A DNA stretch of 64,000 nucleotides from Psychromonas sp. psych-6C06. Lineage in GTDB: Bacteria > Pseudomonadota > Gammaproteobacteria > Enterobacterales > Psychromonadaceae. The first letter of the stretch is position 1, and each line of letters begins with the position of its first letter. Shown here piece by piece: positions 8,979-50,358 of this stretch. Both the position numbers and the translations under genes were made by a program. The notes under the pieces are model-generated. The model was not told the origin of the DNA and searched no databases. It was given only the letters and a program-made list of their open reading frames with translations. The stretch lies in assembly GCF_002835465.1 (NCBI RefSeq), contig NZ_PIZM01000001.1:558001-622000 (forward strand). The letters run 5' to 3'.

Positions 8979-9165
8979 AAATCTTTCCTGTCAAATAAAT
9001 GTTATTATAATACTAATGTGTATTGTTATTATAATAGATCAAATAACGCGCTTTTTAAATTAACTTAAGAAATTAGTTTGTGAAAAAATGATAATTTGAA
9101 TGTATGTAACGATGGTGACTCATTAACTATAGCGTTATAGTAATCATTTGTTAGCGAGAATAACC

Positions 9166-10770: not shown

Positions 10771-11214
10771 TTAGCAAATAGCTCCCAATGAAATCTGAGT
10801 TAATTCAATAAAGGCAAGGGGATCTTCACCCATGCTTTTTATTTTGATGTGATCGGCGAAACCAAGTCGCGCAGTCATGAATAACCAAAAGAGCGCACTC
10901 ATTAGGCCTACTATTCGCCACAGTGTTTTTTTTGCCCACTTCAGTGCAAGCGTAATCGACAATACGTAAAATACAAATCCCGCGAGTTTAGAAGAGCCCC
11001 AGCCATTAACAAATGGATATAAATTAAGCGGGTTTACGATGAGTAAATAAATAAAGGTACAGATAAAGAGTGCATATAAAATATGTGGCCCAATTTTAAG
11101 TAATTTATTATTAACCATGTCAGATTCTTTCATTGTTAATACAAAGTTAATCATAAAAAAGATAAAAGTGAGCGCAATTATCGCCAGATGGGTATGTTTA
11201 ATTATCATGTACAT
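10771..11214 (-). CDS. SirB2-like inner-membrane protein
   Basis: A 147-residue protein with four predicted membrane helices (about residues 8-27, 42-62, 75-93, 99-118). The N-terminus [21 protein letters not shown] matches the SirB family, described around invasion gene regulation in enterics but of unknown biochemical role. The true start may be Met3. It is isolated from the usual prmC/kdsA context and lies 46 bp from the ilvD relic. The membrane topology is solid; the family call is moderately so. Confidence 0.7.
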
Positions 11215-11402
11215 GTTGTTGGTTCCTAATATTAATGAAAACTATTTCCACTTGAGGGCCCAGTATATAGTCTGTAGTGACCATTAAAAACCATACATAT
11301 TGTATTCTTTTAAACGAAGCGCCTTCGTTGCAAGAACGAGTTAAATCCACAAATTTTTTATTGTTCTACAATAAAGCTACTATTTCTGCTTTTGGAGTTT
11401 TT

Positions 11403-12512: not shown

Positions 12513-13979
12513 TTTTGCATGTTGTAGTGGAATCTGAATAGTAAATTTGGCCCCCTCTTTAGGGGGGACTAAATTGTTTACTAAAATATCTGCATTATGG
12601 TAATTACAAATATCTTTACAGATTGACAGCCCTAACCCGGTTCCACCCGCTCCTGTATTTGTATTTGAAGACTGGGAAAACTTTTCAAATATATGGCTAA
12701 TTTCTTGTTCGGGAATTCCCACACCCTGGTCTTCAATTATAATTTCAGCAATATTAACGATCTGTTGTTCTTTTTTAATCGTTTTTTTAGATATCTCAAT
12801 AAAGATAATACCTTCATCTGGTGAGAATTTAATGGCATTATTAATGATATTGTAAAATACCTGGTGGATACGATTAACGTCCATCTCCACCATGATGTCA
12901 CTGTTGGGGCTATCTGTGACAATAGTAATTTGTTTCATATTAATGAGTGAATCTAGCTCTATTAGTACATTATTCATCACCTCGTTTACCAGTGCACTTT
13001 CAAAATTAAATTGCATCTCTCCGGCTTCAAGTTTTGAAAGGTCCAGTAAGTTATTGAGCAACAATAATAACCGAGAGCCACTAGTATGAATTCGATTAAA
13101 ATATTTTATTAATTTTTGTTTTTCTACTTTTTCAATTTTGTTAAGTCCAAGTTCTGCAAAACCTAAAATACCCAACATTGGGGTACGTAACTCATGAGAA
13201 ATATTCGCTAAAAATTCTGATTTAGCTTGATTCGCATTTTGTGCTTCAGTCACCGCTGTTTCTAATAGTTTCTGTTTATGCTCTAACTCATTTTTCATGG
13301 AAAAGAAGGAACTAATCAGAAGCTGCACTTCATCCCCTTCATTTTCAATTGTATGTTTTCCGCCTTGAAAGTCTTCGATACTCTCACGTAGTTTGATCAG
13401 TGGATTAATGATCAAGCCAATTGCGTACATGACCAGTATTAGCAAGAGAATGAATAAAACAATAGAGCTACTTACCTCATAATAAAAAAGGGTTTCAATA
13501 TTTTCATCTGCCTCAGATTGAACAATAGAAAAAGAATGATGGATATAATCTCTTAGTTGGCGCTGCAATAGCTCTTTCTCATCGATTAATAATTGTTTAT
13601 GCTGCGGAGAAGTAGAGCTTAAATTATTGATCTCCATCTGTTTTAGTATTAGTAACGCGCTATACTGCATCATTTTTTCTGCAAGTCGTCGCTCTTCTAT
13701 TTCATCTATATCGTCATTATTTAATACATTTTGAAGGTTTTCTTTTGCTAATTGCGATACTTTATTTAACTCCTTAATGCTAACAAAACGAGAAGATGCA
13801 ATAGCGACCTGATGATCTAATTGTGAGAGCAATTTATGGTCGGTAAAAGCGTCGTTTTTTACTTTTTTAAACAGCATGTTAAAGGCAAACACGTATATTA
13901 AAAGAATTAGAAAAAGAGTTGTTGCAGTAGCGAGAAAGACTTTGGTTCGAATAGATAATGTTGCTAGTTTGAATGACAC
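12504..13979 (-). CDS. Membrane sensor histidine kinase
   Basis: A 491-residue protein: membrane helix 1 (about 14-34), a helical periplasmic segment (about 45-168), helix 2 (about 171-191), HAMP (to about 235), a coiled coil, then HisKA with the phosphorylatable His262 (ANISHELRTPMLG) and a HATPase domain (N box HQVFYNIINNAIKFS, GVGIPEQE, GAGGTGLGLSICK). The all-helical sensor domain suggests a four-helix bundle that binds a small ligand or senses the membrane. It ends inside the last 9 bp of the opposing response regulator gene. The signal is unknown. Confidence 0.9.
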   Translation of the reverse strand: MSFKLATLSIRTKVFLATATTLFLILLIYVFAFNMLFKKVKNDAFTDHKLLSQLDHQVAIASSRFVSIKELNKVSQLAKENLQNVLNNDDIDEIEERRLAEKMMQYSALLILKQMEINNLSSTSPQHKQLLIDEKELLQRQLRDYIHHSFSIVQSEADENIETLFYYEVSSSIVLFILLLILVMYAIGLIINPLIKLRESIEDFQGGKHTIENEGDEVQLLISSFFSMKNELEHKQKLLETAVTEAQNANQAKSEFLANISHELRTPMLGILGFAELGLNKIEKVEKQKLIKYFNRIHTSGSRLLLLLNNLLDLSKLEAGEMQFNFESALVNEVMNNVLIELDSLINMKQITIVTDSPNSDIMVEMDVNRIHQVFYNIINNAIKFSPDEGIIFIEISKKTIKKEQQIVNIAEIIIEDQGVGIPEQEISHIFEKFSQSSNTNTGAGGTGLGLSICKDICNYHNADILVNNLVPPKEGAKFTIQIPLQHAKSL

Positions 13980-14068
13980 ATTAAATTCCTAACAGGTAAT
14001 GACGTATAAAAATTATAAGTCGCCTATGAAAAATTGCCATTCTTGATAATTACCTTTTGCTCTAGCCA

Positions 14069-14719
14069 CTAGTTTTCATCTTGCCGGGTTAAACAAAACT
14101 GATAAAGGTGATGGTAGGCCGGTAGTAAGGTGCTTTGAATTTGCCCAGCAGACTCCTGAATTAATAAACTATCACCAATCACAATGTCACAGTTAAAAGG
14201 AACAAATAACCCTTCTCCGCGTGGTAATGAACGACCTAACCCATGCATGACAATCGGGGTTATTGGCACATGACCGTATTCCTTAGAAAGATAAAATATT
14301 CCTCTTTTAAGGTTGGACAATTGCTCTGGCTCGCCACGAGACCCCTCAGGAAAAACCACCAAAATATCACCGTTGTCGAGTGCTTTTAAACACTCACTGA
14401 ATATCTCATCACGAGCTGTACCGCCTTTTCTATCAAGCGGGATAATGCCAATCACATTTAACGAAAACCAGGCTAAGAGCCTATTGGATAGAAAATAATC
14501 CGCAGCAGCCACTGGACGTACTTTATGTATTTTAGATAACGGATAAAGACTAATTAACACCATCGTATCAAGGTGACTGTTATGGTTTGGGGCTAATAAA
14601 GCTGGGCCTTTTTGCGGTAATTTTTCTCTAAAGGAGATGTTTAAACCCAAGACAATAAAGACGATTGGCTTAATCAATAGTGCAAAAAATAGTATTTTTA
14701 GGATACGTGAAATCATCAT
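14069..14719 (-). CDS. Lysophospholipid acyltransferase (PlsC family)
   Basis: A 216-residue membrane-anchored acyltransferase. The catalytic HX4D motif is His46-Asp51 (NHNSHLDTM), and the substrate motif is FPEGSRGEPE. An N-terminal hydrophobic helix (about 7-27) anchors it. PlsC enzymes place the second acyl chain to make phosphatidic acid. Its start overlaps the stop of the CDP-diglyceride synthase-like gene (TAATG), so it is the last gene of the ynb-like cluster. E. coli ynbABCD has no such gene, so this is an addition that could supply dedicated phosphatidic acid or remodel the final lipid. Confidence 0.88.
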   Translation of the reverse strand: MMISRILKILFFALLIKPIVFIVLGLNISFREKLPQKGPALLAPNHNSHLDTMVLISLYPLSKIHKVRPVAAADYFLSNRLLAWFSLNVIGIIPLDRKGGTARDEIFSECLKALDNGDILVVFPEGSRGEPEQLSNLKRGIFYLSKEYGHVPITPIVMHGLGRSLPRGEGLFVPFNCDIVIGDSLLIQESAGQIQSTLLPAYHHLYQFCLTRQDEN

Positions 14720-15654
14720 TAATAATGTAAAAAGTAGAGGTAGTGAAAGAATAAAGGAGCGGTATAAATAAGGCTATCAATGCGATCTAGAATACCACCA
14801 TGGCCTGGAATGAGTTGACTACTGTCTTTAATTTTTAAATCTCGTTTAACCGATGAAAGAACGACATCACCAAAAAAACCACCAATACAAATAATTAGAC
14901 CTGCACCCAGTCCTTGCACCCATGTAAGCGGGGTTAAATAAGGTGTAATAAACCCAGAAGTAATGGTAAGTGTTAGCAGTCCTCCGATAAAACCTTCCCA
15001 TGTTTTATTTGGGCTAACTTTAGGAATTATTTTATGTTTACCGATCATTTTTCCCCAAATATATTGGCACACATCGTTAAACTGAGTCATGAATATCAAG
15101 TATAAAATAAGTCCGACACCACCTCCTAACGTATTTTTTTCAGGTAAAACCAGTAAAAATGCGATATGACTAACTGAGAAAACGGTGAGCATGACCGCCC
15201 AATGCAAGATCCCTGCTGATTTTATAAACCCCTTTGTTTCACCAACTAAAACCATACGGATCGGTATAAAGAGAAATACATAAATAGGGATGAAGATAAT
15301 AAACATACCGAAATAGGCTTGGCTAACCCAATAATACTGAACTGGAATTGAAAGGTATAACCAAAAAACAGCACGCCTGTCTGCCATGCGCATGGGTACT
15401 ATCGATAAAAACTCTTTTAATGCTAAAAAGCTTAAAAAAGCAAAGAATACGATGGTGGCAGTATGACTAAAAATGAAAACGAAGAACATGATGCCAATCA
15501 TCCACCACCATGACTGAATACGTTGTCTTAATTCAGTATAATCGGTCTGTGGCGATCGAAAGCCAAGTATTAAACGGCTTGAGGTTGCAATGATCAACAT
15601 TGCTAAGACACTCATCATGGCATACTTCGAATGTAATGGAATGTGTTCAAACAT
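14719..15654 (-). CDS. ynbB: CDP-diglyceride synthase-like protein (YnbB)
   Basis: A 311-residue CdsA-family integral membrane protein with about eight helices. Family motifs are SPNKTWEGFIGG and the C-terminal signature KRDLKIKDSSQLIPGHGG followed by LDRIDS. It activates phosphatidic acid with CTP to CDP-diacylglycerol. A housekeeping cdsA normally sits with bamA/ispU; this copy sits with ynbA-, ynbC- and ynbD-like genes and is close to YnbB in length (298), so it is likely a dedicated paralogue. A MITE-like element lies upstream, between it and the ynbD-like gene. Confidence 0.85.
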   Translation of the reverse strand: MFEHIPLHSKYAMMSVLAMLIIATSSRLILGFRSPQTDYTELRQRIQSWWWMIGIMFFVFIFSHTATIVFFAFLSFLALKEFLSIVPMRMADRRAVFWLYLSIPVQYYWVSQAYFGMFIIFIPIYVFLFIPIRMVLVGETKGFIKSAGILHWAVMLTVFSVSHIAFLLVLPEKNTLGGGVGLILYLIFMTQFNDVCQYIWGKMIGKHKIIPKVSPNKTWEGFIGGLLTLTITSGFITPYLTPLTWVQGLGAGLIICIGGFFGDVVLSSVKRDLKIKDSSQLIPGHGGILDRIDSLIYTAPLFFHYLYFLHY

Positions 15655-35443: not shown

Positions 35444-37042
35444 TTGATTGACTTTCGAACCGCCCTTAGTGTGATGTCAAAATCATCACCATACGCTGTT
35501 TCTACAGAACGAAGCACTGTATTATCAACTGACTTGGATGCTGTAAAAAAATACCTTTATATTGAAGACTCTGATATTGAGACTGATTTTAAAAAGGTAC
35601 TAAATAGTCTGTCATTTAACGATAAAAAGATAATTTTCCTTTGTGGTAGTAGTGGAGATGGAAAGTCTGAAATTTTAACTAGAGCAAAGAAAAATTTCCT
35701 ATCTAAGGTAAATTTCCACCTCGATGCAACACATAGTTTCCATCCAAATGATTCAGCAATACAGACGCTGGATAAATTATTTTTGGAATTCTCGGAAAAC
35801 TCAAAACCATTGGTTGTGGGTATCAATACCGGTATGTTAGGTAACTATGCGAAAGAGGGGGCTGTATCTGAAATTAAAAAGTCTGCATTGGCTTTTTTAG
35901 ATAAGGAGTCAACACCTGACAATCACATATTCCTAGATTTTGAAAGCTACCCTAAGTTTAAAATAACTGATGATGGCTATGAAGCAGATTTTACACATAA
36001 ATTGCTTAATAAAATTACACAAGCCGAAGGTAACTTAATTCGAGAAATTTATGAGAGAAATAGGTCTGTAAATAAAGATAAAAGTAGCAAGCGGTTACAT
36101 GCCAATTATGAGTTGTTGAGTCAACCTGCAGTTCAAAAAACAATTGTTGAATTATTGTTTAAAGCGCGTTTAATGCACGATCAGTTTTTGACTGCTCGTT
36201 CTTTATTAGATTTTATTTTTACGCTTTTAGCGGGACCTGGTTACTTGTTTGATAATTTATTTGCGGGTGGGGACAATGAACTTTTAAGCAAAATTACTGA
36301 TTTTGATCCTGCCCATTTAAGAACACAGAAAATTGATCGTTTTATCTTAGCAAATGACCTCGCTTTACCAGATAACGAATTTGATGAATTCAAGGCACAT
36401 ATCGAATCTATTGGCATTGAAAACTTAACAGGTAGCCACTCTTACTTAAGATTGTTTTATGTGCTAAAAAATGGTGACTTTAAAAATACTTACCCTAGTA
36501 AATTTATTCAGGACTTTAATGAATCACTGATAGAGAAATATATCAATATTTATCAGTTACATAGAAGTTATGATGGTAGTTCTATTCAAAGGAAGGCATT
36601 AAAAGACTTTTATAAGAACAGCTTGAGTACAGCTATTAGAAAGTATAATAACCGTAATGCCCCTAACTTGGGTAAGAGCCATTATTTAATCTCTGAATTA
36701 AATGGTTATCAACTAGCTGCTGAGTTAGACATCACTGCGGATATTAAAAGAATTACTCAATTTTCGACCCAATCTCCAGCCAGTTTTACTGCATGTATAA
36801 AAGTAGAAAATGAATTGTTATCAATTCCTGTCAATATCAATTTATTAAATCTGATGCAAAAAATAGTTGATGGTTATAGACCCAATAAGCATGACAAAAA
36901 TACAGTCGTACTATTGGATGAGTTAATCGCTGGAATAGTGAAAGTGGCTAATAAGTTAAACACGCTTCATATTTTCAAATCCAATCAACATATTACAGTG
37001 AAAAAAGTAGATGAAGACGAACTTAAAGTAAGTGGGATGTAA
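35444..37042 (+). CDS. dptF: PT-dependent restriction protein DptF
   Basis: A 532-residue P-loop protein of the DptF (DndF) family. The N-terminal block ALSVMSKSSPYAVST is conserved in the family, and Walker A is CGSSGDGKSE (about 66-75). Together with DptG and DptH it restricts DNA that lacks phosphorothioate marks. The TTG start at 35444 is preferred: AGGA lies 9 bp upstream, and the ATG at 35474 would cut into the conserved block. It is the first gene of the plus-strand restriction operon; dptG follows its stop by 1 bp. Confidence 0.9.
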   Translation: MIDFRTALSVMSKSSPYAVSTERSTVLSTDLDAVKKYLYIEDSDIETDFKKVLNSLSFNDKKIIFLCGSSGDGKSEILTRAKKNFLSKVNFHLDATHSFHPNDSAIQTLDKLFLEFSENSKPLVVGINTGMLGNYAKEGAVSEIKKSALAFLDKESTPDNHIFLDFESYPKFKITDDGYEADFTHKLLNKITQAEGNLIREIYERNRSVNKDKSSKRLHANYELLSQPAVQKTIVELLFKARLMHDQFLTARSLLDFIFTLLAGPGYLFDNLFAGGDNELLSKITDFDPAHLRTQKIDRFILANDLALPDNEFDEFKAHIESIGIENLTGSHSYLRLFYVLKNGDFKNTYPSKFIQDFNESLIEKYINIYQLHRSYDGSSIQRKALKDFYKNSLSTAIRKYNNRNAPNLGKSHYLISELNGYQLAAELDITADIKRITQFSTQSPASFTACIKVENELLSIPVNINLLNLMQKIVDGYRPNKHDKNTVVLLDELIAGIVKVANKLNTLHIFKSNQHITVKKVDEDELKVSGM

Positions 37043-37043
37043 A

Positions 37044-38357
37044 ATGATAAAAGAGCAACTAGATATACCAGCAAATAATAAACTGAGTACATACCTACCT
37101 TTAAGAACTAAAAGCCTTCATTACAAGTTTTGTTGGGATACGGTACTGGGTTACTTTGTACGCGTATTTTATGGAAAAGAAGTAAAAAAAATTACTGTTG
37201 ATGATTTTAAAGAGCTATGTAAAAAGAGGTTATCTCCAAAAATAGAAGAAGAACCTGATTTTTGGCTTGTACTAGAAAAAATGTACTTTGAACATGAACA
37301 AATTTTCAAAATTTCTCCTGAGTTATTAATTTTTAAAGCAGTAAAAGGTGAGATAGATACAAACAGTAAAAAGTTAGGTGATATGTACCTCGGTTTGCTA
37401 AATGGTTTTAATGTACCTAGCTCAGCCGAAAATAACCTTAATTTTTTAGAAAAAGAAATTAAATCCGAATTTGATAATTTTTATGAGACAGGAAAAGGTA
37501 AAGCGAGGGAGAATGAAGAAACACCTTATCTACCTTTCCTGACGGAACTCTTTCAGCAAGACTTACTCTTCCTTAGCAAGAGGCCACAATACCTATTAAA
37601 TAATTTTAATGCCTTTATTCGCTTATATGGTTTTTTATATGTTTCTCAAATGGCCCTTAATATAAAAAATTGGAGCAATGGAGCGCCAACAAGTAAACCC
37701 TGCTATTTCATCATCGATAATGAAAAAGCCAGTGATGAGCGTTCACAAGTTAAAAATTATGGTTATGGTCAACTAAACGAGTACCTTGAGTACCTGTTTC
37801 CATACCTAGTGATGAATGAAACGTTACAAGAAAAAGGTGATATTAAGCCTATTTGGCAACTATTTGAAGGTTTAACAGACGATCATATTAGTAAGTTAAA
37901 TGATTTCGGTAAAGATTTCGTAGAAGATCGCCATCAACGTAAATGGTATAAAAAACCGCTCAACTGGACTAACACCAACGATAATAATGAACTGTTAGCA
38001 CAATTACTCGATATAGCACATGCACAATTTGAGAAAGGTAAAGGTGGTTTAACCACATTCAACGATACGGTGAGAAAAGGTCTTTTAGGCAATATTTGCG
38101 ACCCTTTTATTCAACGTCGTGGTCGTGCAGGGCAAGTGCTCACCTTCAATCAAGATTACATTGTATTACTAACCAATTTAGCAATTGGTGAAAAGGAAAA
38201 ATTACGCCTTCATGAGCTGCTTGATGAGTTTGAAGCAAGAGGTATCTTTTTCGATAAACAAAGTCAGCAATGTTTGATCGATTTTTATGAGCGTATGGGC
38301 AATGTTGAAAGAATGAGTGATAGTGGGGATGCAGTATATGTTAGAAAAACAGTTTGA
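37044..38357 (+). CDS. dptG: PT-dependent restriction protein DptG
   Basis: A 437-residue protein recognised as DptG (DndG) by context and sequence; it has no motif I can name. It lies 1 bp after dptF and overlaps dptH by 20 bp, the standard order F-G-H. DptFGH are thought to form one complex that damages unmodified DNA; DptG's own activity is not established. ATG at 37044 immediately follows the dptF stop, suggesting translational coupling. Confidence 0.88.
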   Translation: MIKEQLDIPANNKLSTYLPLRTKSLHYKFCWDTVLGYFVRVFYGKEVKKITVDDFKELCKKRLSPKIEEEPDFWLVLEKMYFEHEQIFKISPELLIFKAVKGEIDTNSKKLGDMYLGLLNGFNVPSSAENNLNFLEKEIKSEFDNFYETGKGKARENEETPYLPFLTELFQQDLLFLSKRPQYLLNNFNAFIRLYGFLYVSQMALNIKNWSNGAPTSKPCYFIIDNEKASDERSQVKNYGYGQLNEYLEYLFPYLVMNETLQEKGDIKPIWQLFEGLTDDHISKLNDFGKDFVEDRHQRKWYKKPLNWTNTNDNNELLAQLLDIAHAQFEKGKGGLTTFNDTVRKGLLGNICDPFIQRRGRAGQVLTFNQDYIVLLTNLAIGEKEKLRLHELLDEFEARGIFFDKQSQQCLIDFYERMGNVERMSDSGDAVYVRKTV

Positions 38358-41300
38358 AGAGTTTTTAGTAACACACTTTAATACTTGGGCTGAGACAAAT
38401 TTAAAAGCAGGTTATCGTTACCAATTTAAAACATCGGATAGTGATAAAGGGCAAGCGCTTTATAATGCTTTTGTTGATTCTTCTACTAGCAGCATTTCAA
38501 TTAAAGGTGTTGAGTTAAAGATACTTCAATATGGTAGTACGAAGCTTTTACCTGTCTATCATGGCGACTCTGAAAATGGCTTTACTGAAAACTTTATATC
38601 GCATCTACGCGATGAAATATCTTCTCAACAGGGGGAATTTAAAGGCACTGCGTTATTAATTATTCATAATTCAATGCTTGATACGTTAATAAATTCTACA
38701 GAGGATGTCGCGCAGCCTAAATTTGTTTGGCACCCTAAAAATATCAAGCAGTTGCTTTTTGCTGAGATTAAGCAGGAAGATCAAAATGCAAAAATCTCTG
38801 AATGTTTACTCGATTTTTATTTCGACGATATTGTTGATGACGGCGCAACCATGTTTGGTTTTGAAAAACTGTATTATGCAATTGCGGATGGTGATTTACA
38901 GTTTCATGAATTAGGTCTTTTAAACGATGATCAACTTACAGAAGGGGGCTGGGATGGAGAGCAAATTAATGATCGTTTAAAAGACAATAAAGAACTAAGT
39001 GAAAAACTTGATTTTATAACACATCATTTCCCCAATGAATTAGAAGATAAATTAGCCTCGCTTGATTTCAGTGAAAAATTTATAAAAGAAAACTTTCCAA
39101 GTGAAGATGTAGAGCAGTATAAAGGTAAGCTTGATCTTGGTCTGTGTTTTGCAGAACAACAAAAAAACAGAACAAATCTACTTGAACTTGAAAGTGAAAA
39201 AGCGCCTTATATTGATTTATTAAGTAAAGCGAAGTCAGAAAAAGGGGCGGGTGCAAGAGAACGTCATTTAATACTTCTACTTGAGCCTGAACAGCATACC
39301 TTCGAGTTAGAGTTGTGCTTTTTGAATCAAAAATTAAAAGACAGTTACTGTAAGATACAACACAATAAAAACCAGCAAGATGTCAATATAGAAATAAAGA
39401 ATCCCGGCGGTATAAGAAGTCGTGCAGTGTTAACCAGTAGCTTTGATGGTAATGCACGTTACTTTACATTTCAGGTTAAAACGGACAAGCCAAAAGAAAC
39501 GCATAAGTTTAAAGTATTGGTGATTGGTAAAACTGATTTTTATATAGAAGGTTTCAAGCATACCTACTTGGTTGAACCCTCTAAACAGTGGTTAACACTG
39601 CAAACGGATGATCAGTCTTTACAAGTGAGTGATTTAACCAATACCAGCGTATTAAACACCAACCAGCAAGTGTTTGATGCGAGTGACGTGGGCTTTGTTG
39701 ATTTTAAAAAATTAGCCAGTGAATCCGACGAAGTTTGCTTCACGGTAAAGGGCACTACAAGCCAATTAACATTTAATGTGGAAGGTGAGGTTGCAACCGA
39801 CTCGCTGGCTTTTCCGCTTATGTTAGACCAAGGGCGCTTTAATCATCTATTTAACGATGAATATTTTGGTCAATATAACCGCCGTAAAAGCAAAGTATTA
39901 TTAGACGGTAAAGAAGTTGCACCGAAAGGCAAGCGACTCACATTATTGCAAAATGAAGCCGAGCTACTCGACAGCCAATTGCTTGCAAAACATTCACTTG
40001 AAAATGATATAAAACTCCATGATATAGAAGTTTATTACCCAGACCTTTTTAATGCTTACCGTGATTTATACGATTATCTCGCATTTCATAAAACACTCTT
40101 AAGTCTATCGGGATGGGGGCCCAAGCTAAGAGGTTTGATTGAACAAATAGTTACTGTTTATCAAATCGCTATCGAAGACATTCCCTATCATGCACCGCTA
40201 CTAGATCAACATAGCTTACTGGTTAATATTGGTTTCGCTGAATTTGAAGAGCAGGAGTACATAAGCCCTTACCATCCAATGGTATTAGCTTACAATGCCA
40301 ACTTAGCGAATAGTCTCGCCAACGATAAATTGGAAACAGGCAGCTATAAAAAATTGCCACCAGTTACTATCCAGCGTTTAACGGCCCAAGGCTTATTACC
40401 GTTTGTTTATCACCCTCAGCATGACTTCTCATACAACCATGCTGAAAAAGAAAATGTCTTTTGGTCGAAGCTTATCCCGCAACAAGAAAGTAGTTATGAC
40501 TTTGTCCGCTCGCTTGTTAAAGACAAAGTGGGGAAATTTACAACCGCCTTCAAACAGTTATTTTTAGCGGGCAGTAAAACAACCCTGATCATTAACTCGG
40601 TTAATAATCAGAAAAATGAAGAGTTGTTCCTAGGTTTAATAGATTACATCAAGCTTAAAAAAGACAAAGTTACCAATATTCATGTCAATCTATATGATGA
40701 GTCAGAGTGCTATAGCTGGTTTGATAAGTTTGCAGATATGGCCAGCTACGATGAAATTAAAGTACTCTGTGAATTAAATAAAGGGGCTATTCGAGAGCAA
40801 GCCGATAGCATTGTTGACTTGCTACGAACACGTTTAACCTACAGTAAGTATGAGCATGGTAAGGGCGACAAAGAACAAGCGTATGCGCACATGTCTTTTT
40901 TCAAAAATAATGAACGTGTTCAAGCGACGGACGTAGATGTCTTAAAACAGGAAAGTGGCGTGGTATGTCATGGTTTAATGCCGGGCGAATCAGCATCTAA
41001 TAAAAATGGTCGTTACTATACCTCTTTTGGTTTGCAAGGCGTCGATATCGAAAGTGCACCACATTTAAAACTGATTGCTAAATACAGTGGGTTGATAAAA
41101 CCCGCTAAGCTTAGGCATGAAGAATATAGTGCCTCTAAATCGCAAGCATTAGTAGTCAAGGATAGTTTCAAAACCTTACTTGAGCGCTCTTACGAAAACT
41201 CAATTTGGACCACCATTATCGACCCAAAGGTGACGCTAGAGTTTTTTGAAAACCAAAAAAATATGGTGCTGATCCACTATTCAGATAACTACACCAACTC

Positions 41301-43398
41301 AGTTAACTACGATGCAATAACGGTGACCAAGCAGACAGATCTTTATCATAAAGTACTTGAAAGTGATCAAGGTGGCATCATAGAAGAATTTAATGCATTC
41401 AATGGCGAATGGTTGCTTAATTTAGTAACTGCAGAGGCCAATGAACGAAAAGAAAAGCGCGGTATTATTGGTGCGTATAAATATGTTAACTGCCTTGTTG
41501 CAGATTCCAACATTACTTGGGTGCCGTTATCAATTGCCGAAATAGTCAGAGTGGCGGGTAACCTTGGTTTAAATATGAAAGACAGTGATTTATCACGTCA
41601 TTCACAAGGTTTCAAAAAAGGGGCTATTTCAGACGATATTCTTTTTGTTGGTTTTAAAGAACAGCAAATTATATTTTTACCCGTTGAGGTAAAAACGGGT
41701 AAACGCCAGACGCATAACAAAGGGGTGGAGCAAACTAAAGAGCTTAAACGCTATTTTGAAGCGCTGTTAGGGCAACAAAATTTAGCGGGACATTTGTACC
41801 GTGGTTTGTTTATGCGCCAAGTGCTGATGCAAATAGATAAGTACAAGCTCTATAAAGTGTATGCTGATGGATATTTTAATAGAATCGAGAATAATAGCGC
41901 GCAGTGGTTACAAGGTGATTACCAACTTGTTGAACTGACAGATTATCCTGAAGGTATTTTGTTTGTAAATGTTGAAGACACTGACTTTACCAAAGCTTCT
42001 TTCTTGAAAATACAAAATATTCTGAAGATAGAGCTACCAGCAGATAACTTGGGTTATTGGATTAAAACACCAATGCAAAAGTTACTTGGTGATTTAACGC
42101 CTGCTAAGTTACATCATATCGATGAGCAATATATTTTAAAAAGGGAGCCTGTGGTAAATCTTGTTGTAACGGATTCTGAGCCTTCTACAACAAACAGTGA
42201 AGATTTAACTACGTTAGTTAGCTTAGGTAGCACAACACAAACCACTATTAGCGAACAATCAGATTCTACAGATAACTCAGAAAGCGCGTCTAAGACTACT
42301 GATGAAGCAGACGTTGTAGCCACTGATTCAATACGTAAAAAAATGCCTGTTGAAGATTTACAAGCAATGTACCAAACAATCATTGATTGTTATTACAGCC
42401 ATAAAGTTAACTTGCTCAAAGCTGATAATGTTGAACCTTATATTGAGGGACCAGCCTCTATTCTATTTAGAGTCGGGCTCAGTCTCGGTGATAAACCAGA
42501 GAATGTATTTGCGAAGTCCCAATCACTTAAATTAGCGTTAAAGCTAGAACAAGAACAAGAGATTGGTTTTGGTATCGATAAAGGCTGTATCACTATTGAT
42601 GTGCCTAAAAGCCAAGAGCAACGTTACTTTGTAGACCAAAACGACATTTGGCCAAATTGGCAACGTCCACAAAACGCTCTTGAAGTACCACTAGGTGAAG
42701 ACCGCTTCGGCGAAGTAATTAAACTTAATTTTTCATCCTCAAATTGCCCACATTTGCTTATTGGTGGTACAACCGGTAGCGGTAAGTCAGAAGCGCTAAA
42801 TACTATTTTATATGGCATGGTTGAGCATTACACACCAAGTGAATTAAAGTTGATGTTAATTGACCCTAAAGGGACCGAGCTTAACGATTTTGAACGCTAT
42901 CCGCACTTAATAGGGCGCATTGGGTTTGATGATGAAGACGCACTAGAACTGTTAACTCAAGCAGTAGCTGAAATGCAATCGCGCTATGCACAATTTAAAG
43001 CACAGGGTGTACGCTCACTGCCAGACTACAACGCCAAAGTAACACCTGAAGAGCGTATACCTTGGTGGGTATTGGTGCTTGATGAATACGCCGATTTAAC
43101 ATCAGATAAAGACATGAAAAAGGATATTGAATCTGAGCTAAAGCGCTTAGCGCAAAAAGCCCGTGCTGCCGGTATCCATTTAATTATTGCCACGCAAAAA
43201 CCAAGTGGCGATGTAATAAGCACAAATTTACGTTCTAACCTGCCAGCACAACTTGCACTACGAGTTAAAAATGGTACTGAAAGTCGTGTTATTCTTGATG
43301 AACAAGGCGCGGAAGTACTTAATGGTAAAGGGGATGCTTATCTTAAATCAGAAGGTAAGTTGGTTAGAATACAGTGTGCAAGAGTCCAGCAAAACTAA
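38338..43398 (+). CDS. dptH: PT-dependent restriction protein DptH with FtsK-like ATPase
   Basis: A 1686-residue protein, the large subunit of the DptFGH restriction complex. The C-terminal ~270 residues form an FtsK/HerA-type motor: Walker A GGTTGSGKSEALN (about 1475), LMLIDPKGTELNDFERYPHL, Walker B WVLVLDEYADL (about 1579), and ARAAGIHLIIATQKPSGDVI. Upstream is a long region without clear motifs, with a nuclease-like FLPVEVKTGKRQTHNKG segment (about residue 1115-1135) worth checking as a PD-(D/E)XK core (E-V-K). A Ser/Thr-rich linker (about 1275-1320) separates the two. Start 38338 has GGGG 9 bp upstream. Confidence 0.92.
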   Translation: MLEKQFEEFLVTHFNTWAETNLKAGYRYQFKTSDSDKGQALYNAFVDSSTSSISIKGVELKILQYGSTKLLPVYHGDSENGFTENFISHLRDEISSQQGEFKGTALLIIHNSMLDTLINSTEDVAQPKFVWHPKNIKQLLFAEIKQEDQNAKISECLLDFYFDDIVDDGATMFGFEKLYYAIADGDLQFHELGLLNDDQLTEGGWDGEQINDRLKDNKELSEKLDFITHHFPNELEDKLASLDFSEKFIKENFPSEDVEQYKGKLDLGLCFAEQQKNRTNLLELESEKAPYIDLLSKAKSEKGAGARERHLILLLEPEQHTFELELCFLNQKLKDSYCKIQHNKNQQDVNIEIKNPGGIRSRAVLTSSFDGNARYFTFQVKTDKPKETHKFKVLVIGKTDFYIEGFKHTYLVEPSKQWLTLQTDDQSLQVSDLTNTSVLNTNQQVFDASDVGFVDFKKLASESDEVCFTVKGTTSQLTFNVEGEVATDSLAFPLMLDQGRFNHLFNDEYFGQYNRRKSKVLLDGKEVAPKGKRLTLLQNEAELLDSQLLAKHSLENDIKLHDIEVYYPDLFNAYRDLYDYLAFHKTLLSLSGWGPKLRGLIEQIVTVYQIAIEDIPYHAPLLDQHSLLVNIGFAEFEEQEYISPYHPMVLAYNANLANSLANDKLETGSYKKLPPVTIQRLTAQGLLPFVYHPQHDFSYNHAEKENVFWSKLIPQQESSYDFVRSLVKDKVGKFTTAFKQLFLAGSKTTLIINSVNNQKNEELFLGLIDYIKLKKDKVTNIHVNLYDESECYSWFDKFADMASYDEIKVLCELNKGAIREQADSIVDLLRTRLTYSKYEHGKGDKEQAYAHMSFFKNNERVQATDVDVLKQESGVVCHGLMPGESASNKNGRYYTSFGLQGVDIESAPHLKLIAKYSGLIKPAKLRHEEYSASKSQALVVKDSFKTLLERSYENSIWTTIIDPKVTLEFFENQKNMVLIHYSDNYTNSVNYDAITVTKQTDLYHKVLESDQGGIIEEFNAFNGEWLLNLVTAEANERKEKRGIIGAYKYVNCLVADSNITWVPLSIAEIVRVAGNLGLNMKDSDLSRHSQGFKKGAISDDILFVGFKEQQIIFLPVEVKTGKRQTHNKGVEQTKELKRYFEALLGQQNLAGHLYRGLFMRQVLMQIDKYKLYKVYADGYFNRIENNSAQWLQGDYQLVELTDYPEGILFVNVEDTDFTKASFLKIQNILKIELPADNLGYWIKTPMQKLLGDLTPAKLHHIDEQYILKREPVVNLVVTDSEPSTTNSEDLTTLVSLGSTTQTTISEQSDSTDNSESASKTTDEADVVATDSIRKKMPVEDLQAMYQTIIDCYYSHKVNLLKADNVEPYIEGPASILFRVGLSLGDKPENVFAKSQSLKLALKLEQEQEIGFGIDKGCITIDVPKSQEQRYFVDQNDIWPNWQRPQNALEVPLGEDRFGEVIKLNFSSSNCPHLLIGGTTGSGKSEALNTILYGMVEHYTPSELKLMLIDPKGTELNDFERYPHLIGRIGFDDEDALELLTQAVAEMQSRYAQFKAQGVRSLPDYNAKVTPEERIPWWVLVLDEYADLTSDKDMKKDIESELKRLAQKARAAGIHLIIATQKPSGDVISTNLRSNLPAQLALRVKNGTESRVILDEQGAEVLNGKGDAYLKSEGKLVRIQCARVQQN

Positions 43399-43410: not shown

Positions 43411-44058
43411 ATGTATAATAAAAGAAAGTATCTTAGTGAAGCATTTATTAAACGCTATTCAATACCTATAGGCATTGTAGGTTTAGCACTTACAACTATG
43501 TCTACATTCGGCGTATCTATGGAGGGGACTTTCAATGCTTCAAATTTCTGGGCTATGGTGTGGCTTTTCGTCGCATTAATAATACTTGTCATAATTGCGC
43601 TAGATTTAGCACTCAAGGATCTAAACGTCTTTGTAAATTCAAAGTTCAATATTGGTGAATTACCACCTGTATTGAGTATTGCAGGGATTAATGACGACGA
43701 AAATGCGAAAATCATTCTTCACCCAAATAAAGATATATCAATTCAAAAAGATGCCGTAGTAACAATAATACTATGTGACGAAAAACAAGGTGATATTGAG
43801 TTTGGTTTAGGAGTTATTACAGATCTACAGGCTGACGGAAAAATTGCTTTAGTAGCAACACCGAAAAGAGCATTAGAGAAACAATGGAGACTTGTTCTTG
43901 AAAATACAGGTAATTATGCGAGTAAATTGAGAGTTAGAACTATAGTAGACAGAAACTATGTTAATGATGATTATTTGTATAAAGAAAATTATGAAATTGG
44001 CAATTTAAGTAAATCGGCAAATGTTTTGAGTCATGATGGGACAGGAGTAAAGCTATGA
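43411..44058 (+). CDS. Two-membrane-helix protein of unknown function in the PT island
   Basis: A 215-residue protein with two hydrophobic segments (about residues 15-34 and 46-68), then a beta-rich soluble domain of ~145 residues (AKIILHPNKDISIQKDAVVTIILCD, GKIALVATPKRALEKQW, LRVRTIVDRNYV). I do not recognise the family. GAGG lies upstream, it starts 13 bp after dptH, and its stop overlaps the next start (ATGA), so it belongs to the dpt operon. The 2TM + beta-domain layout resembles membrane effectors of other phage-defence systems, but that is only an analogy. Confidence 0.75.
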   Translation: MYNKRKYLSEAFIKRYSIPIGIVGLALTTMSTFGVSMEGTFNASNFWAMVWLFVALIILVIIALDLALKDLNVFVNSKFNIGELPPVLSIAGINDDENAKIILHPNKDISIQKDAVVTIILCDEKQGDIEFGLGVITDLQADGKIALVATPKRALEKQWRLVLENTGNYASKLRVRTIVDRNYVNDDYLYKENYEIGNLSKSANVLSHDGTGVKL

Positions 44059-45104
44059 GTAACTATAACTACATTCAGTTTACTCAGCCAGCGGGGGTAT
44101 TTTATATGCTGAGCTTACCTGCTAAATTCGTTACTAAAATAATGGTCGTAAACGAACGAGATGAAGACGGGAGTGGGATGCAAAGAGGGGACTCTAAACC
44201 AAGGATTGATGAAATAAAGAGTTATTGTAATGATCCTGATGCTACATTCCCAACCCCCGTAATAATGGCAATTGATTCAGAAAATTTGACATTTAACAAA
44301 GATAATACAGTTACAATAGCTGATGAAGCAGGAATAGCTGATGTTTTAGATGGGCAACACAGGCTGAAAGGTCTTAGAGCATCAAATAATATTGATGCAT
44401 TTGAATTACCGGTAGTATTTGTAAAAGATGCAACAGAAGAACAAAAAGCTTATATATTTTCTATTATTAATAGTAAGCAAACTAGAGTATCACCCTCTCT
44501 AATTTATGATTTATTCGCGGTCATGAAAAAGAGAAGCCCTCAAAAAACATGTCATGAAATTGCTCGCAGCTTGAATAAAATGGAATCATCACCATTTTTC
44601 GGGCGTTTGAAAATGTTGGGAAAAGGTGGAGGGGAAAATGCCTCATTGTCACAAGGAACATTTGTGAAAAGGCTTGTTACTCTAATCACTAAGAAACCAG
44701 ATGATTATCTGATAAAAATAAAAAATGATGAAGAACTTCCGATAGAAGATCTACCTTTCAATGAGTATTTCCGAGAAAATAAGGATGACGTAATTTTCAA
44801 AGTGGTCTTGAATTTATTTTCAGCTGTAAGGCATGAGTTTAGAGATGAATGGGGCAACCCGAGTGAATCAATCCTTTCGAAAGGTATAGGTTTTGGGGCT
44901 ATTATAAGAGCATTTCCAGCTATCTTTAAGAAAGGTAAATCAAAAGGAGATCTTTCTGAAAGTTACTTCCGTGAAGTGTTCGCTAATTTCAAAACTGTTC
45001 TAAGTGAGGAGAATATTAGCCTGACATCGGAACACTTTGGCTCAAATGAAGCGAATGTTACACAGTTACACAAACTCATTGAAAAAGGGCTATTAAGGGT
45101 GTGA
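44055..45104 (+). CDS. DGQHR-domain protein, second copy in the island
   Basis: A 349-residue protein with the hallmark VLDGQHRLKGL (Asp99-Arg103) of the DGQHR family, to which DndB also belongs, but otherwise unlike the DndB of this island. Similar DG(Q/H)HR signatures occur in ParB/sulfiredoxin-fold proteins, so nucleotide or DNA binding is plausible. It overlaps the 2TM gene by 4 bp and is the last gene of the dptFGH operon. DndB is a transcriptional regulator in Salmonella; whether this copy regulates, senses PT DNA, or works with the 2TM protein is unknown. Confidence 0.85.
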   Translation: MSNYNYIQFTQPAGVFYMLSLPAKFVTKIMVVNERDEDGSGMQRGDSKPRIDEIKSYCNDPDATFPTPVIMAIDSENLTFNKDNTVTIADEAGIADVLDGQHRLKGLRASNNIDAFELPVVFVKDATEEQKAYIFSIINSKQTRVSPSLIYDLFAVMKKRSPQKTCHEIARSLNKMESSPFFGRLKMLGKGGGENASLSQGTFVKRLVTLITKKPDDYLIKIKNDEELPIEDLPFNEYFRENKDDVIFKVVLNLFSAVRHEFRDEWGNPSESILSKGIGFGAIIRAFPAIFKKGKSKGDLSESYFREVFANFKTVLSEENISLTSEHFGSNEANVTQLHKLIEKGLLRV

Positions 45105-45200: not shown

Positions 45201-45542
45201 TTAATCTCTTTTATTATAAAAACTAATCCCACGATTCAAATGCAACTTAACAAAATCTCCAAACTGCACACCTCCTAGGTGTGCAGTTTGTTTTTGATAC
45301 GCTTCACGCAGCACGGCTAAATAAACATCGGCATATTCACCGGCAAACACTTTCCAGCTCATTTCCACGTTGCTGTCTGATGGAATATCTTCAACAGGGG
45401 GGATTGAATCTTCAGCGAGCGACATACAAAGTGCCCACCGACAAAGTACATTCCAGTTTTCGATTCCTGTTTTACGTTTTAAGGTGGTTAGTTGTTGCTT
45501 TTGCTTTTCAGAAAGGCGAATAGTATCAATTGTATGTTCCAT
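45201..45542 (-). CDS. dndE: DNA sulfur modification protein DndE
   Basis: A 113-residue small helical protein with the DndE pattern: DTIRLSEKQKQQLTTLKRKTGI at the start and FGDFVKLHLNRGI near the end. DndE binds nicked DNA as an oligomer and is needed for phosphorothioate insertion with DndC and DndD. Its ATG shares a base with the dndD stop (TAATG) and AAGGGG lies upstream. The 3' part contains a perfect 14-bp inverted repeat, see the terminator at 45260. It is the last gene of dndBCDE. Confidence 0.93.
   Translation of the reverse strand: MEHTIDTIRLSEKQKQQLTTLKRKTGIENWNVLCRWALCMSLAEDSIPPVEDIPSDSNVEMSWKVFAGEYADVYLAVLREAYQKQTAHLGGVQFGDFVKLHLNRGISFYNKRD
45260..45296 (+). terminator. Strong plus-strand terminator-like hairpin inside dndE
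   Basis: CAAACTGCACACCT (45260-45273) is perfectly complementary to AGGTGTGCAGTTTG (45277-45290) with a three-base loop, and TTTTTG follows on the plus strand. A 14-bp perfect stem with T-tract is as strong a terminator as any in the window, yet it lies within the dndE reading frame (coding QTAHLGGVQ). It would stop plus-strand transcription coming from the dpt operon; dndE itself is read the other way. Confidence 0.7.
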
Positions 45543-47497: not shown

Positions 47498-49145
47498 CGG
47501 TTGACTCCTCAGTCTCAATAATTAAGGAGCTATAGCCTTGTTCTTTAATAGATCTTGTTACCATTATAATTTTTTCTTCAATTGCTCTCTTATCTTCTTC
47601 ATCGAGATTAGGAGAGTTATTTAAATGTATTTGTAAACGATGGCGCTCGCGCTCTAAGGCAAATTGCTTTGCTTCAAACAAGCTATTAAATGCACCTTTA
47701 TCTAAGCTTTTGTTTAATTCTTCTGATAAATTTGCACGACGCAGTTGATTACGGTGCTTATTGGCAATCGACATCACAGAGCGCATTTGTTGGTAAAGCA
47801 GGCCATCTTCATCACCTTGCTCTTTACAGTGTTGCTTTAACTTATCAAGCACGTCCAAATTTAAAATAGGGTGATGCGCGCGTTGTTTACCCGGGTAGCT
47901 TTGTTTAATTGCTTGCTCATAAATGCGAGGTACGCTGTCTTCCGCTTCATGTTTATCTTCTAGCCAAATACGGCGGATCTCTTCTAAATCTTCTATCGTT
48001 AATAGCTCTATGTCTTTGACTTCTTCTGGCCCTAATTGTTGCACTGCAACTTGCGCTTCTAAAACCTTAGCTAACAGGTGTTCACGAAACGATTGAATGT
48101 AAGGTCCTGGTACTAAATCTGCACCATGCTTTGAAACATGCACGGTTAAATTGCCTTTCATTCGTCTAAAGTCTCGATTGGCTTTATCCCGCTTTAGCTT
48201 TTCTATTTTTTTATGGCGGTTGGCATCATTGACTTCAATTTCATTTCGCAGTGCAACCAATGGATACATCCACTCTTTTTCTTCATCATTGGCTATCATG
48301 GCATTCATGGATTTATCTTCAGATACCATAGTACAAACGTAACAACCAAAGCGGCTATCGCCACAACTTTGCGTGCTTTTATCAACTACTAAAGGGCATT
48401 CACCACCTTCAGTTGCGCCTTGATACATGCCCATTAAATCATGGTTTGGAAAACCCCAAGGATTTTTAATACTGTTGAGATAGACCCACACATCATCATT
48501 AGTCCAACTTGCAATAGGCGTATAAACCCAAACACGTTCGAGAGAGTCATTTTCAGTTAAACCTTGTGCTTTACGAGTATTAGTTTCAGAACTCTCAAAA
48601 CGCTCCATACTCGCTGCACGTGCAGTGCTTTCTGCTTTACGTGTACCTAACACTAAAATAGCTTCGCCACTTTTGTTGGCCATATTTTGGATGAAGGTAT
48701 TCGAAGGTGATATTTTCAGGCGATCTGTACACCAACGAAATTTGTAACGTGGGGCAGGGTAACCTTTACCAATTAGATTAACCCAAAATCGGTCTTTGAC
48801 TGCAGGGGTTAATCTGTGTGGGGTAATCGGTAAACCTTGCTCATCAGCTTGTTCTTTCATTTTACTTAAAGATTTACCTACCCACATTGCAACGATGGGG
48901 TTTTCAACCAGAGTATCGGTACTGATAACATGTACTTTTTTCTTACACGCGCCTTCTTCTTTTAACTCTTGTAAGGCATACCAGATAAGTTGCAAAATTG
49001 CAGTTGAATCTTTACCGCCACTGTAACCAATTACCCATGGTATCTGATCACTTTTATAAAGTGTTTTTACGTGATCAATAGAATCTCTGATCGTTTCTTT
49101 CAAGCCTACTTTCGTAAATGCAGATTGGTTTTTTGTGCTAGACAT
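47487..49145 (-). CDS. dndC: DNA sulfur modification protein DndC (PAPS-reductase-like)
   Basis: A 552-residue protein of the PP-loop/PAPS reductase fold. The ATP pyrophosphatase loop SGGKDS is at about residues 42-47, and a Cys cluster CGDSRFGCYVC supplies ligands for the [4Fe-4S] cluster that DndA loads. DndC, with DndD and DndE, puts sulfur in the DNA backbone. Start 49145 (after AAGGGCAAG) overlaps the dndB stop by 8 bp; a longer ORF to 49190 is not supported. Length is close to known DndC proteins. Confidence 0.95.
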   Translation of the reverse strand: MSSTKNQSAFTKVGLKETIRDSIDHVKTLYKSDQIPWVIGYSGGKDSTAILQLIWYALQELKEEGACKKKVHVISTDTLVENPIVAMWVGKSLSKMKEQADEQGLPITPHRLTPAVKDRFWVNLIGKGYPAPRYKFRWCTDRLKISPSNTFIQNMANKSGEAILVLGTRKAESTARAASMERFESSETNTRKAQGLTENDSLERVWVYTPIASWTNDDVWVYLNSIKNPWGFPNHDLMGMYQGATEGGECPLVVDKSTQSCGDSRFGCYVCTMVSEDKSMNAMIANDEEKEWMYPLVALRNEIEVNDANRHKKIEKLKRDKANRDFRRMKGNLTVHVSKHGADLVPGPYIQSFREHLLAKVLEAQVAVQQLGPEEVKDIELLTIEDLEEIRRIWLEDKHEAEDSVPRIYEQAIKQSYPGKQRAHHPILNLDVLDKLKQHCKEQGDEDGLLYQQMRSVMSIANKHRNQLRRANLSEELNKSLDKGAFNSLFEAKQFALERERHRLQIHLNNSPNLDEEDKRAIEEKIIMVTRSIKEQGYSSLIIETEESTDDY

Positions 49146-50229
49146 TTCTTGCCCTTTGTAATTTTTCTTCGTCGGCTTGTTCTTTTTCATTAAGCGGTAT
49201 TTCGAGATAATGCTTTATTTTATTGGCTGTTAGCTTTGCTGATTGGGAATTATTATTCATACCACCATTCACTACACATCGACTCTCCCAGTCTGCCTGG
49301 TTAGATTTATCCCAATTAATTTGTTTTAACCTTATTAATGTTTGCTTCCAATTTTTATCATTTTTCAATAAATATGAACCGACGATACCGAGGGCTTGAA
49401 AAGTAACTGAATGAGCATGAATGCCCTCTTCTCTTAGTTCTTTGCTCGAAACTTCATCTCGGCATACTAATAACCAAGCTGGCATGTTCTTAATTACTTC
49501 TTCCCAGTATTCAGATGCAATTGGAATTAGGCTCTGATAATTATCTTTATCGATTTTGCCAACTAACTGCTTTGTTGCTTTATTTACAGCACTATGGCTG
49601 ATTAATTTTTTGGATCGAGAGCCTAAGTTGCTTTTTTCCATATGCACAAGTTTCGATAGGTTTTTACTTTGATATATGATTGTTTTTGACAAAATAGCAT
49701 GAGGCTTATCGTCGTAAGTAATGCTTAATGAAGTATCTGTTTTAACAGGGTATAGATTTAGATCTTTAAATATTCGCTGCCTCTCTGCAAGGGTTTTATT
49801 TGCAAAAAAAACAATAGATATAGTTTCATTTGCTAATGAAGGATCCTCTTTTAATGCTTCTAATATTGCAGCATTTCGATGTTGACCATCAGTGATATAG
49901 ATTTCTGCATCTTCATCAATTAAAAGAGTACCAATTTTTTGTTCGTGTTTAGATTCGCCTATGCCAATGAATTCACTTTTACCATCGATACAAGCAGTTA
50001 ATGCAGAAAACACATAACCATAGCGGTTATCTAAGATGTAGTTAGTAATTTCAGGAATTCGATCTTCATTAATAACACGTTGCGCTCGTTTCTCTACAGG
50101 CAATATGCTTTCATCTAAAGTAAAAACTTTCATTAACCTTTTTAGAGGGCACATAACCGTGTAATATTCATTACCAGCCTGAGTACCTTTAATTGCAGGA
50201 AACGAAGTACCCGATACTATTGTTTGCAT
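49138..50229 (-). CDS. dndB: DNA sulfur modification regulator DndB
   Basis: A 363-residue DGQHR-family protein, first gene of dndBCDE. The motif YITDGQHRNAAI is at about 111-122 (DGQHR 114-118). In Salmonella, DndB is reported to repress the operon by binding TACG-N10-CGTA sites, with a Cys near residue 29 important; Cys27 in VMCPLKR here is the likely equivalent. Start 50229 is preferred, with GAGG 8 bp upstream and FPAIKGTQAGNEYY as family N-terminus. The divergent gap to dndA contains a large inverted repeat that is a natural operator. Confidence 0.9.
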   Translation of the reverse strand: MQTIVSGTSFPAIKGTQAGNEYYTVMCPLKRLMKVFTLDESILPVEKRAQRVINEDRIPEITNYILDNRYGYVFSALTACIDGKSEFIGIGESKHEQKIGTLLIDEDAEIYITDGQHRNAAILEALKEDPSLANETISIVFFANKTLAERQRIFKDLNLYPVKTDTSLSITYDDKPHAILSKTIIYQSKNLSKLVHMEKSNLGSRSKKLISHSAVNKATKQLVGKIDKDNYQSLIPIASEYWEEVIKNMPAWLLVCRDEVSSKELREEGIHAHSVTFQALGIVGSYLLKNDKNWKQTLIRLKQINWDKSNQADWESRCVVNGGMNNNSQSAKLTANKIKHYLEIPLNEKEQADEEKLQRARNV

Positions 50230-50258
50230 ACTTAAAACCTCAAAATACTTATCATCCA

Positions 50259-50310
50259 TGTTCTTACGAAATATATGCTTGTTCGTAAGAACAAGAGTGC
50301 GTAATGTACG
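50259..50310. promoter_or_regulatory. Putative operator in the dndB-dndA divergent region
   Basis: A perfect 12-bp inverted repeat TGTTCTTACGAA (50259-50270) / TTCGTAAGAACA (50282-50293), 11-bp spacer. It contains TACG (50265-50268) and CGTA (50284-50287), spaced 15 bp rather than the 10 bp reported for Salmonella DndB. Three copies of GTTC/GAAC (50260, 50281, 50289) fall inside it. A further CGTA-ATG-TACG (50300-50310) follows. It lies between the dndB start and dndA start and could control both. Confidence 0.7.
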
Positions 50311-50358
50311 TGACATGACGTTAAATGTCTTTATTTATTTCTCATTTTGGAGCAATTC

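Follow-up and report, generated by a model that had tools for sequence, protein, structure and literature searches.

A recurrent membrane protein-DGQHR gene pair in the phosphorothioation island of Psychromonas sp. psych-6C06: a proposed switch and effector

Described systems and the new locus

In 2011, phylogenetic profiling with ProPhylo uncovered a DGQHR satellite family of DPT systems, TIGR04172 (PMC3226654), and one to three hypothetical proteins have been noted between dpt and dnd in E. coli dnd islands (PMC4373003). Here we describe a pair of overlapping genes at such a position in the phosphorothioation (PT) island of Psychromonas sp. psych-6C06, where a gene for a small membrane protein is followed by one for a DGQHR protein. 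The pair lies in a stretch of 64,000 nucleotides (NZ_PIZM01000001.1, positions 558,001 to 622,000), which was analyzed as a whole and is called the window below. Its recurrence in other genomes shows that TM-DGQHR is a widespread mobile two-gene module, in which a small membrane protein, usually with three or four transmembrane (TM) segments and here with two plus a beta domain, is encoded before the DGQHR protein. Proteins so far listed as hypothetical between dpt and dnd can thus be assigned to a defined unit of two genes that is portable and has relatives across many phyla.

In the part of PMC3226654 that deals with TIGR04172, the numbering for Serratia odorifera 4Rx13 places the DGQHR protein between DptH and DptE; the window DGQHR gene likewise has DPT genes next door, being situated between dptH and dndE. 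The TIGR04172 model (DGQHR_dnd_1) is matched at E <= 1e-5 by all 74 members of our DGQHR set A3, and the window protein, which scores 140.4 bits against a cut-off of 450, is not a full member. Moreover, the seven genomes of that account always have the gene beside DPT genes, whereas 75 of the 80 genome loci compared here showed nothing related to the window's dnd/dpt proteins near the pair (up to 10 kb on each side, less on short contigs). Neither a membrane partner nor a Dam-linked form is named in that part of the paper. An earlier note on this DNA had known of no described Dnd/Dpt system with such a pair; this has to be narrowed, because the DGQHR half was already reported in 2011 as a DPT satellite, and it stands for the membrane partner.

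Other relatives in kind are known. In Salmonella, dndI adjoins dndBCDE and is co-transcribed with dndFGH, and as presented in the sections of PMC11662687 on this IscS-DndBCDE-DndI system, it is an accessory effector with a ParB-superfamily ATPase domain. DndI has its HNH nuclease in the same chain, whereas the window pair has a separate membrane protein and no nuclease domain match. SspE of SspABCD-SspE is likewise an NTPase of the ParB superfamily; it reads PT and has an effector under its control (role as given in the same sections of PMC11662687); there, the nuclease effector is in one chain, and the structural match of SspE to our DGQHR model is weak in VIA (Z 4.5; BrxU 3.9, DndI 3.1). Backup suicide effectors at Dnd loci, acting when the main system fails, were proposed in 2024 (PMC10853773) with nucleases as examples, in contrast to the membrane protein found here; in the searchable text of that paper "transmembrane" occurs once, in a reference title. 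A 2025 survey of the ParB-CTPase fold, which the DGQHR protein appears to share, includes a DndB-like protein that bound ATP and GTP, and "transmembrane" is absent from the main text, as searched, of that survey (PMC12704722). In the open-access literature, a scope that leaves out preprints and most subscription papers, we found no description of the membrane partner, of a Dam-TM-DGQHR triplet, or of the exchange slot discussed below. We rate the membrane partner and the Dam-linked relatives as new, and a ParB-superfamily switch with an effector at a DNA-marking system as a known kind.

Recurrence and settings of the module

A scan of 84,980 species genomes with the DGQHR protein gave at least 408 confirmed relatives, and the best 80 were kept for locus counts. 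In 79 of these 80 loci, an open reading frame (ORF) of 121-275 aa lies upstream on the same (+) strand at -11 to 59 nt from the DGQHR gene; the remaining locus, L092, lies at the edge of a contig. By a plain hydropathy window with a cut of 1.6, at least one TM segment is present in all 79 partners, at least two in 78 and at least three in 71, compared with 48 (at least two) and 32 (at least three) of 463 control ORFs of 120-280 aa. The possibility raised in the earlier note, that the pair is a chance insertion without recurrence, is not borne out by these loci. As defined here, the module consists of a TM gene that overlaps a DGQHR gene or lies at most 60 nt upstream of it, an arrangement that includes the window pair; a 4-nt gene overlap is found in 25 of the 30 loci L014-L043, which form the window's own clade. 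The partners have no common Pfam family: at E <= 0.01, each family listed in a Pfam scan covered at most 3 of 81 members.

Among viral relatives, near and distant ones differ in the upstream gene. Near relatives (L094-L126, of which L114 and L116 have no upstream ORF) have a partner with at least two TM segments in 31 of 31 cases, whereas none of the 15 upstream ORFs of the distant relatives (L127-L153; 12 without upstream ORF) has any TM segment; both sets include near-identical copies. The membrane partner therefore goes with the near DGQHR clade. On viral contigs L129-L142, the distant DGQHR genes often follow a TM-free ORF of about 285-310 aa, perhaps another type of DGQHR pair.

The pair type occurs in Bacteroidota, Pseudomonadota, Bacillota, Chloroflexota, Planctomycetota, other phyla and one archaeal metagenome-assembled genome, and also on plasmids and in P2-like prophages. 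In E. coli, a similar pair was found in P2-like prophages of 3 of 5426 genomes, and in two copies inspected it stands between the tail fibre assembly and tail sheath genes, which we take to be a cargo site. The prophage DGQHR protein is 45% identical to that of the window over 341 residues and its gene has the same 4-nt overlap; the prophage partner, a 4TM protein, resembles the window partner only in a short C-terminal stretch (E 0.025). In samples of 369 genomes of the class and 24 of the genus, dptH was present in one and two, respectively, and the DGQHR gene in 2 of the 369, which is uninformative. Taken together, the many phyla, the prophages, the plasmids and the 75 loci away from dnd/dpt relatives support one of the two origins considered in the earlier note, a separate pair that joined the operon; the comparison it had proposed, of genomes with and without dnd genes, places the pair mostly apart from dnd/dpt genes, with some copies in PT islands.

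Several PT islands carry the pair in a comparable place. Both dpt and dnd genes flank it in L014 (2TM type; 67% and 74% identical to the window's 2TM and DGQHR proteins, respectively), L086 (Marinobacter, 4TM) and E. coli 55989 (4TM). In the last of these (L010, 12557-13717), the DGQHR gene was read, in one copy, as split by an in-frame stop. The dptH-dndE region is matched in 123 of 5426 E. coli genomes, 109 of which hold at least 80% of it, with matches at least 99% identical. In L066 (Psychrosphaera, 3TM), dnd genes come after the pair, and no dptFGH was found in the stretch examined; because a DndI-like GmrSD_N+GmrSD_C gene (7449-9269) directly precedes the pair, two accessory effectors seem to share one slot there. 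The pair of a Ruegeria plasmid (L007) lies among annotated PT genes. L069 is a probable PT locus (DndD passes with 257.4 bits, TIGR04095 and TIGR04062 are below cut-off) and L033 a doubtful one (DndD 143 bits, cut-off 245.85).

In the DGQHR tree, the window and L014 nest among rows with mostly 3-4 TM partners, and L066 and L086 among Dam-linked rows. A single clade for the window, L014, L066 and L086 was rejected by the approximately unbiased (AU) test (p-AU 5.4e-9), for which the rows were named after the tree was seen; the PT label requires four changes on the tree, or three without L033. The tree has long branches for L009, L069 and L010, and the fork with the window's clade has support of 91/91, below the tool's star. 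Judging from this rejection and the three to four label changes, the pair moved into the slot ahead of the dnd genes on at least two occasions. Most simply, a 2TM-beta body would have replaced a 4TM body in the window's lineage. We read the slot as a cargo slot for accessory effectors, several with a ParB/DndB-type domain, and repeated entry together with other slot contents (PIN nuclease, DndI) lends further support to a separate pair that joined the operon. The PT operon is thereby indicated to have a slot where DndI, PIN nuclease and TM-DGQHR are exchanged.

A genome from the same genus as the window, G237 (locus L156), has other genes in the slot: one encodes a PIN_8 nuclease, one a protein of 687 aa that matches DndB weakly (20.4 bits, cut-off 29.1) and one a protein of 415 aa. 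The dptG gene of this locus reads as several short ORFs, as if frameshifted.

Other copies of the module adjoin Dam-type methyltransferases or stand alone. A neighbor scan covered 143 nearest-neighbor proteins with lengths of 100-900 aa. These came from 76 of the 80 genome loci, since the PT loci L014, L066 and L086 were omitted, as was L092, which has no upstream ORF. It contained 32 D12-class adenine methyltransferases and 3 DpnII and 1 BglII endonucleases, and PADLOC gave a similar result. In a profile search of every gene in these loci, 33 of the 80 genome loci and 25 of the 32 near viral ones proved to have a D12/Dam methyltransferase gene no more than 500 nt from the pair; 29 of the 33 are directly upstream on the same strand, one is downstream on the same strand and three are convergent. 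D12 genes are thus strongly enriched next to the pair (33 of 151 adjacent genes vs. 4 of 1013 others, p 8e-27). Among PDB entries, the methyltransferase of L050 matches Dam and the DpnII methylase. Few of the nearest neighbors are restriction enzymes (REase_II models match 3 of 143), so that, as far as adjacent genes go, many Dam-TM-DGQHR triplets have no recognized nuclease next door. This frequent arrangement suggests that DNA marks may couple to membrane proteins as well as to nucleases. The methyltransferase model of PD-lambda-5, a compacted prophage version of a combined restriction-modification (RM) and abortive infection system in the pertinent part of PMC9519451, matches 14 of the 143 neighbors; however, neither window protein matches any PD-lambda-5 model at E <= 0.1.

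The two proteins and the window locus

The DGQHR protein passes TIGR03187 (DGQHR domain) with 169.1 bits over residues 8-290 (cut-off 58.85) and scores 57.7 bits against PF14072, and it falls short of DpdB (NF041060, 69.2 bits, cut-off 300) and of the GmrSD_N (DUF262) domain of DndI (15.5 bits, cut-off 33.2), with GmrSD_C (HNH) unlisted at E <= 1. Its model is confident, with a mean predicted local distance difference test score (pLDDT) of 92.6 from 69 sequences. In VIA, which served as a second look, residues 1-145 match PadC (Z 9.1), ParB (8.9) and sulfiredoxin (Srx; 6.8), with ParB-type and sulfiredoxin matches ranging from 9.1 to 5 and 14 ParB-type entries at Z 9.1-7.7. The ParB/Srx superfamily motifs are a QR pair, DGQxR and FxxxN, as listed in the corresponding section of PMC4619093. 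In alignment A5 of the family, D99 G100 Q101 H102 R103, F135 and N139 are invariant and Q43 R44 nearly so. The protein is accordingly predicted to have a ParB/Srx-type fold, and by analogy with this superfamily it is probably a nucleotide-binding switch. Searching the model with Foldseek gave nothing at E <= 0.001, and the profile of A5 matched no solved structure by sequence at E <= 1; the assignment therefore rests on the VIA second look and the family profiles.

For the membrane protein, the earlier note had described two helices and a beta-rich domain. Of the two helices, the one at residues 50-68 is a strong membrane segment (hydropathy 3.0), while the first is weak, with a maximum of 1.55 that lies under the cut (1.67 in the L014 relative). 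The best AlphaFold2 model has helices at 2-32 and 40-76 and strands across 87-179. The description holds, subject to the weakness of the first helix and the low confidence of the model. The Foldseek comparison suggested in the note was null at E <= 0.001 for both proteins; the best matches of the 2TM model (0.02-0.04) are to ATP synthase, FNR-type and DUOX barrels, and VIA matches it to domains of Upf1, V/F-ATPase and FAD-barrel type with Z values reaching 8.8. Because these scores are near the level that the tool rates as common and Foldseek found nothing, the predicted C-terminal domain can only be called a small beta barrel. Cap15-type effectors of the cyclic-oligonucleotide-based antiphage signaling system (CBASS) combine two TM segments with a beta-barrel domain and have a CD-NTase (cGAS/DncV-like nucleotidyltransferase) partner; for the window protein, a 2TM plus beta architecture is modeled at low confidence, and it belongs to no Pfam family. 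With the 2TM protein as query, no match was found in plasmids or phages, among 295 genomes of the order only the window's own was found, and viral contigs gave none with either the single sequence or a two-sequence alignment.

What joins the 2TM type to the 4TM partners of its clade is the C-terminal tail. The partners of the window and L014 are absent among the 70 matches listed (to E 1.7) for a profile of the clade's 4TM body, yet they share the tail D-x-x-G-x-x-[LIVMF]. This motif is found in the window and in 19 of the 30 partners of L014-L043 (L014 included), compared with none of 49 other partners and none of 1130 background genes. A tail profile trained without the window and L014 scores them at 10.6 and 17.1 bits, respectively, whereas the best of 1307 background genes reaches 6.6 and the best of 2000 shuffles 8.2 bits. 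The gene overlap and the shared tail suggest a contact between the DGQHR protein and its partner.

The features of the window are collected in Table 1. DptF, DptG, DptH, DndE, DndD, DndC and DndB pass curated NCBIfam cut-offs, and the pair stands between dptFGH and a convergent dndE-D-C-B set. As the earlier note had read, two overlapping genes (sharing four bases, ATGA) are attached to the dptFGH operon, the second protein has its DGQHR motif at residues 99-103, and this protein is distinct from the DndB of the island, to which it is 27% identical across 162 aa (18.8 bits with TIGR03233, cut-off 328). The intragenic terminator of that note was also found, as a consensus match only (four such sites vs. 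1.9 expected by shuffling); this hairpin could be the end of the convergent dpt-pair transcript.

Table 1. Coordinates of the gene pair and related features in the window
Feature	Position	Strand	Remarks
Membrane protein gene	43411..44058	+	215 aa; 2 predicted membrane helices, cytoplasmic beta-rich domain ~87-179, C-terminal tail DGTGVKL; proposed effector
DGQHR protein gene	44055..45104	+	349 aa; predicted ParB/Srx-type N-terminal domain ~1-145, helical C-terminal part; proposed nucleotide-dependent switch
dptF	35444..37042	+	TIGR03238 616.3 bits
dptG	37032..38357	+	TIGR03236 476.3 bits
dptH	38317..43398	+	TIGR03237 1872.7 bits; same presumed operon as the pair, which starts 12 nt past its end
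dndE	45201..45542	-	TIGR03184 128.3 bits; convergent; far edge of the accessory slot
Terminator-like hairpin	45260..45290	+	14-bp stem and T-run inside the dndE coding sequence
dndB	49138..50316	-	TIGR03233 498.6 bits; the island's true DndB; distant paralog of the DGQHR protein

Proposed function and alternatives

We give an even chance to the reading that the module is a ParB-fold switch controlling a membrane effector and that it serves here as a backup effector of the PT system. The DGQHR protein would act as a nucleotide-binding switch and, as the shared tail suggests, its docking site on the membrane protein is probably the C-terminal tail in the cytoplasm. When infection upsets the DNA-marking state of the cell or its restriction machinery, the switch would free or activate the membrane protein, which would then damage the membrane and abort the infection. 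Candidate triggers are a lost or absent mark, an attack on the restriction machinery and direct sensing of PT. Because the window's module became part of the dptFGH operon at a slot open to different accessory effectors, it would most likely be a backup effector of this system. The other idea of the earlier note, a membrane-effector module tied to PT sensing, may hold as well, given that the pair recurs in PT islands.

Several points weigh against this proposal. Toxicity, membrane damage, NTP binding, docking and anti-phage action are putative properties of the pair. The membrane protein has no NCBIfam or PADLOC family at E <= 0.1 and only Pfam matches below cut-off, and its sole known relative is the 67% identical protein of L014 (9357-10004), which was reached through the DGQHR search, the query of the 84,980-genome scan. 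Its model was built from a two-sequence input and has a mean pLDDT of 59.4 (70-80 in the beta part), with four other models at 38-44. The TM controls were drawn from the same loci, and gene starts and partners were chosen mechanically. As for the tail, 11 of the 30 partners of L014-L043 do not have the exact motif, the window's own match is weak (E 0.086), and those of L033 and L038 (4.4 and 4.5 bits) are below the best shuffles. The tail codons also overlap the ribosome-binding region of the next gene; however, the glycine of the tail is encoded by any of its four codons (GGA 7, GGT 6, GGC 4, GGG 1) and the tail is kept in L031, whose two genes do not overlap, which disfavors a mere ribosome-binding-site effect. 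Finally, none of the 30 loci L014-L043 has an adjacent D12 gene, and among them PT genes occur only in L014 (L033 being doubtful), so that dependence on a DNA mark is not general. The idea that all copies depend on such a mark was dropped for the lack of adjacent D12 genes in this clade.

A more specific model, which we hold only tentatively, makes the module a nuclease-free relative of RM systems. A marking enzyme, Dam-type or PT, would label self, and the DGQHR protein, as an NTPase, would read the mark or its loss and activate a membrane protein with a swappable body (2TM-beta or 3-4 TM) and a constant docking tail.

It is rather unlikely that the pair is a toxin-antitoxin or addiction module, in which a membrane toxin restrained by the DGQHR protein would stabilize islands, plasmids and prophages and have no particular part in PT or methylation. 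The tight coupling of the two genes and their presence on just these elements, alone in most loci of the window's clade, would fit such a role, but the repeated entry into one slot of PT islands and the marked association with neighboring D12 methyltransferase genes suggest a connection to DNA marking. That link could also mean regulation, with the DGQHR protein adjusting the expression of dnd/dpt (or dam) genes as an NTP-dependent repressor, and its membrane partner sequestering it or reporting a membrane signal. The family relation to DndB, reported as a PT regulator in the relevant section of PMC4507180, and the position beside DNA-marking genes agree with this; however, a DndB proper is already encoded in the island, marking genes are missing beside the pair in about half of the loci, and Pfam identified no DNA-binding domain, which together make a regulator quite improbable. 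More doubtful still is an entry block at the envelope, i.e., superinfection exclusion that hinders phage or plasmid DNA without cell killing: the membrane location and the presence in P2-like prophages and on plasmids speak for it, but it leaves the link with Dam and PT genes unexplained. That the pair is a functionless chance passenger in the island is highly improbable even though the 2TM version is known from two genomes only, because the same slot was entered repeatedly and both genes are constrained at the protein level between the window and L014 (nonsynonymous vs. synonymous difference, pN 0.19 vs. pS 0.75 for the 2TM gene and 0.19 vs. 0.84 for the DGQHR gene).

Some relatives of the pair have further genes beside it. 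In L021, the DGQHR gene shares 4 nt with another gene (11074-14739), whose product of 1221 aa has a SIR2_2 domain, which suggests a further effector in some operons. Downstream of the pair, L039, L041 and L042 have in common a run of genes for proteins of about 350, 146, 500 and 335 aa, together with a convergent pair of genes that each encode about 525 aa. The 500-aa product in L041 is an SNF2-type helicase, and an HATPase match was obtained there for one product of the convergent pair, possibly reflecting a larger defense system.
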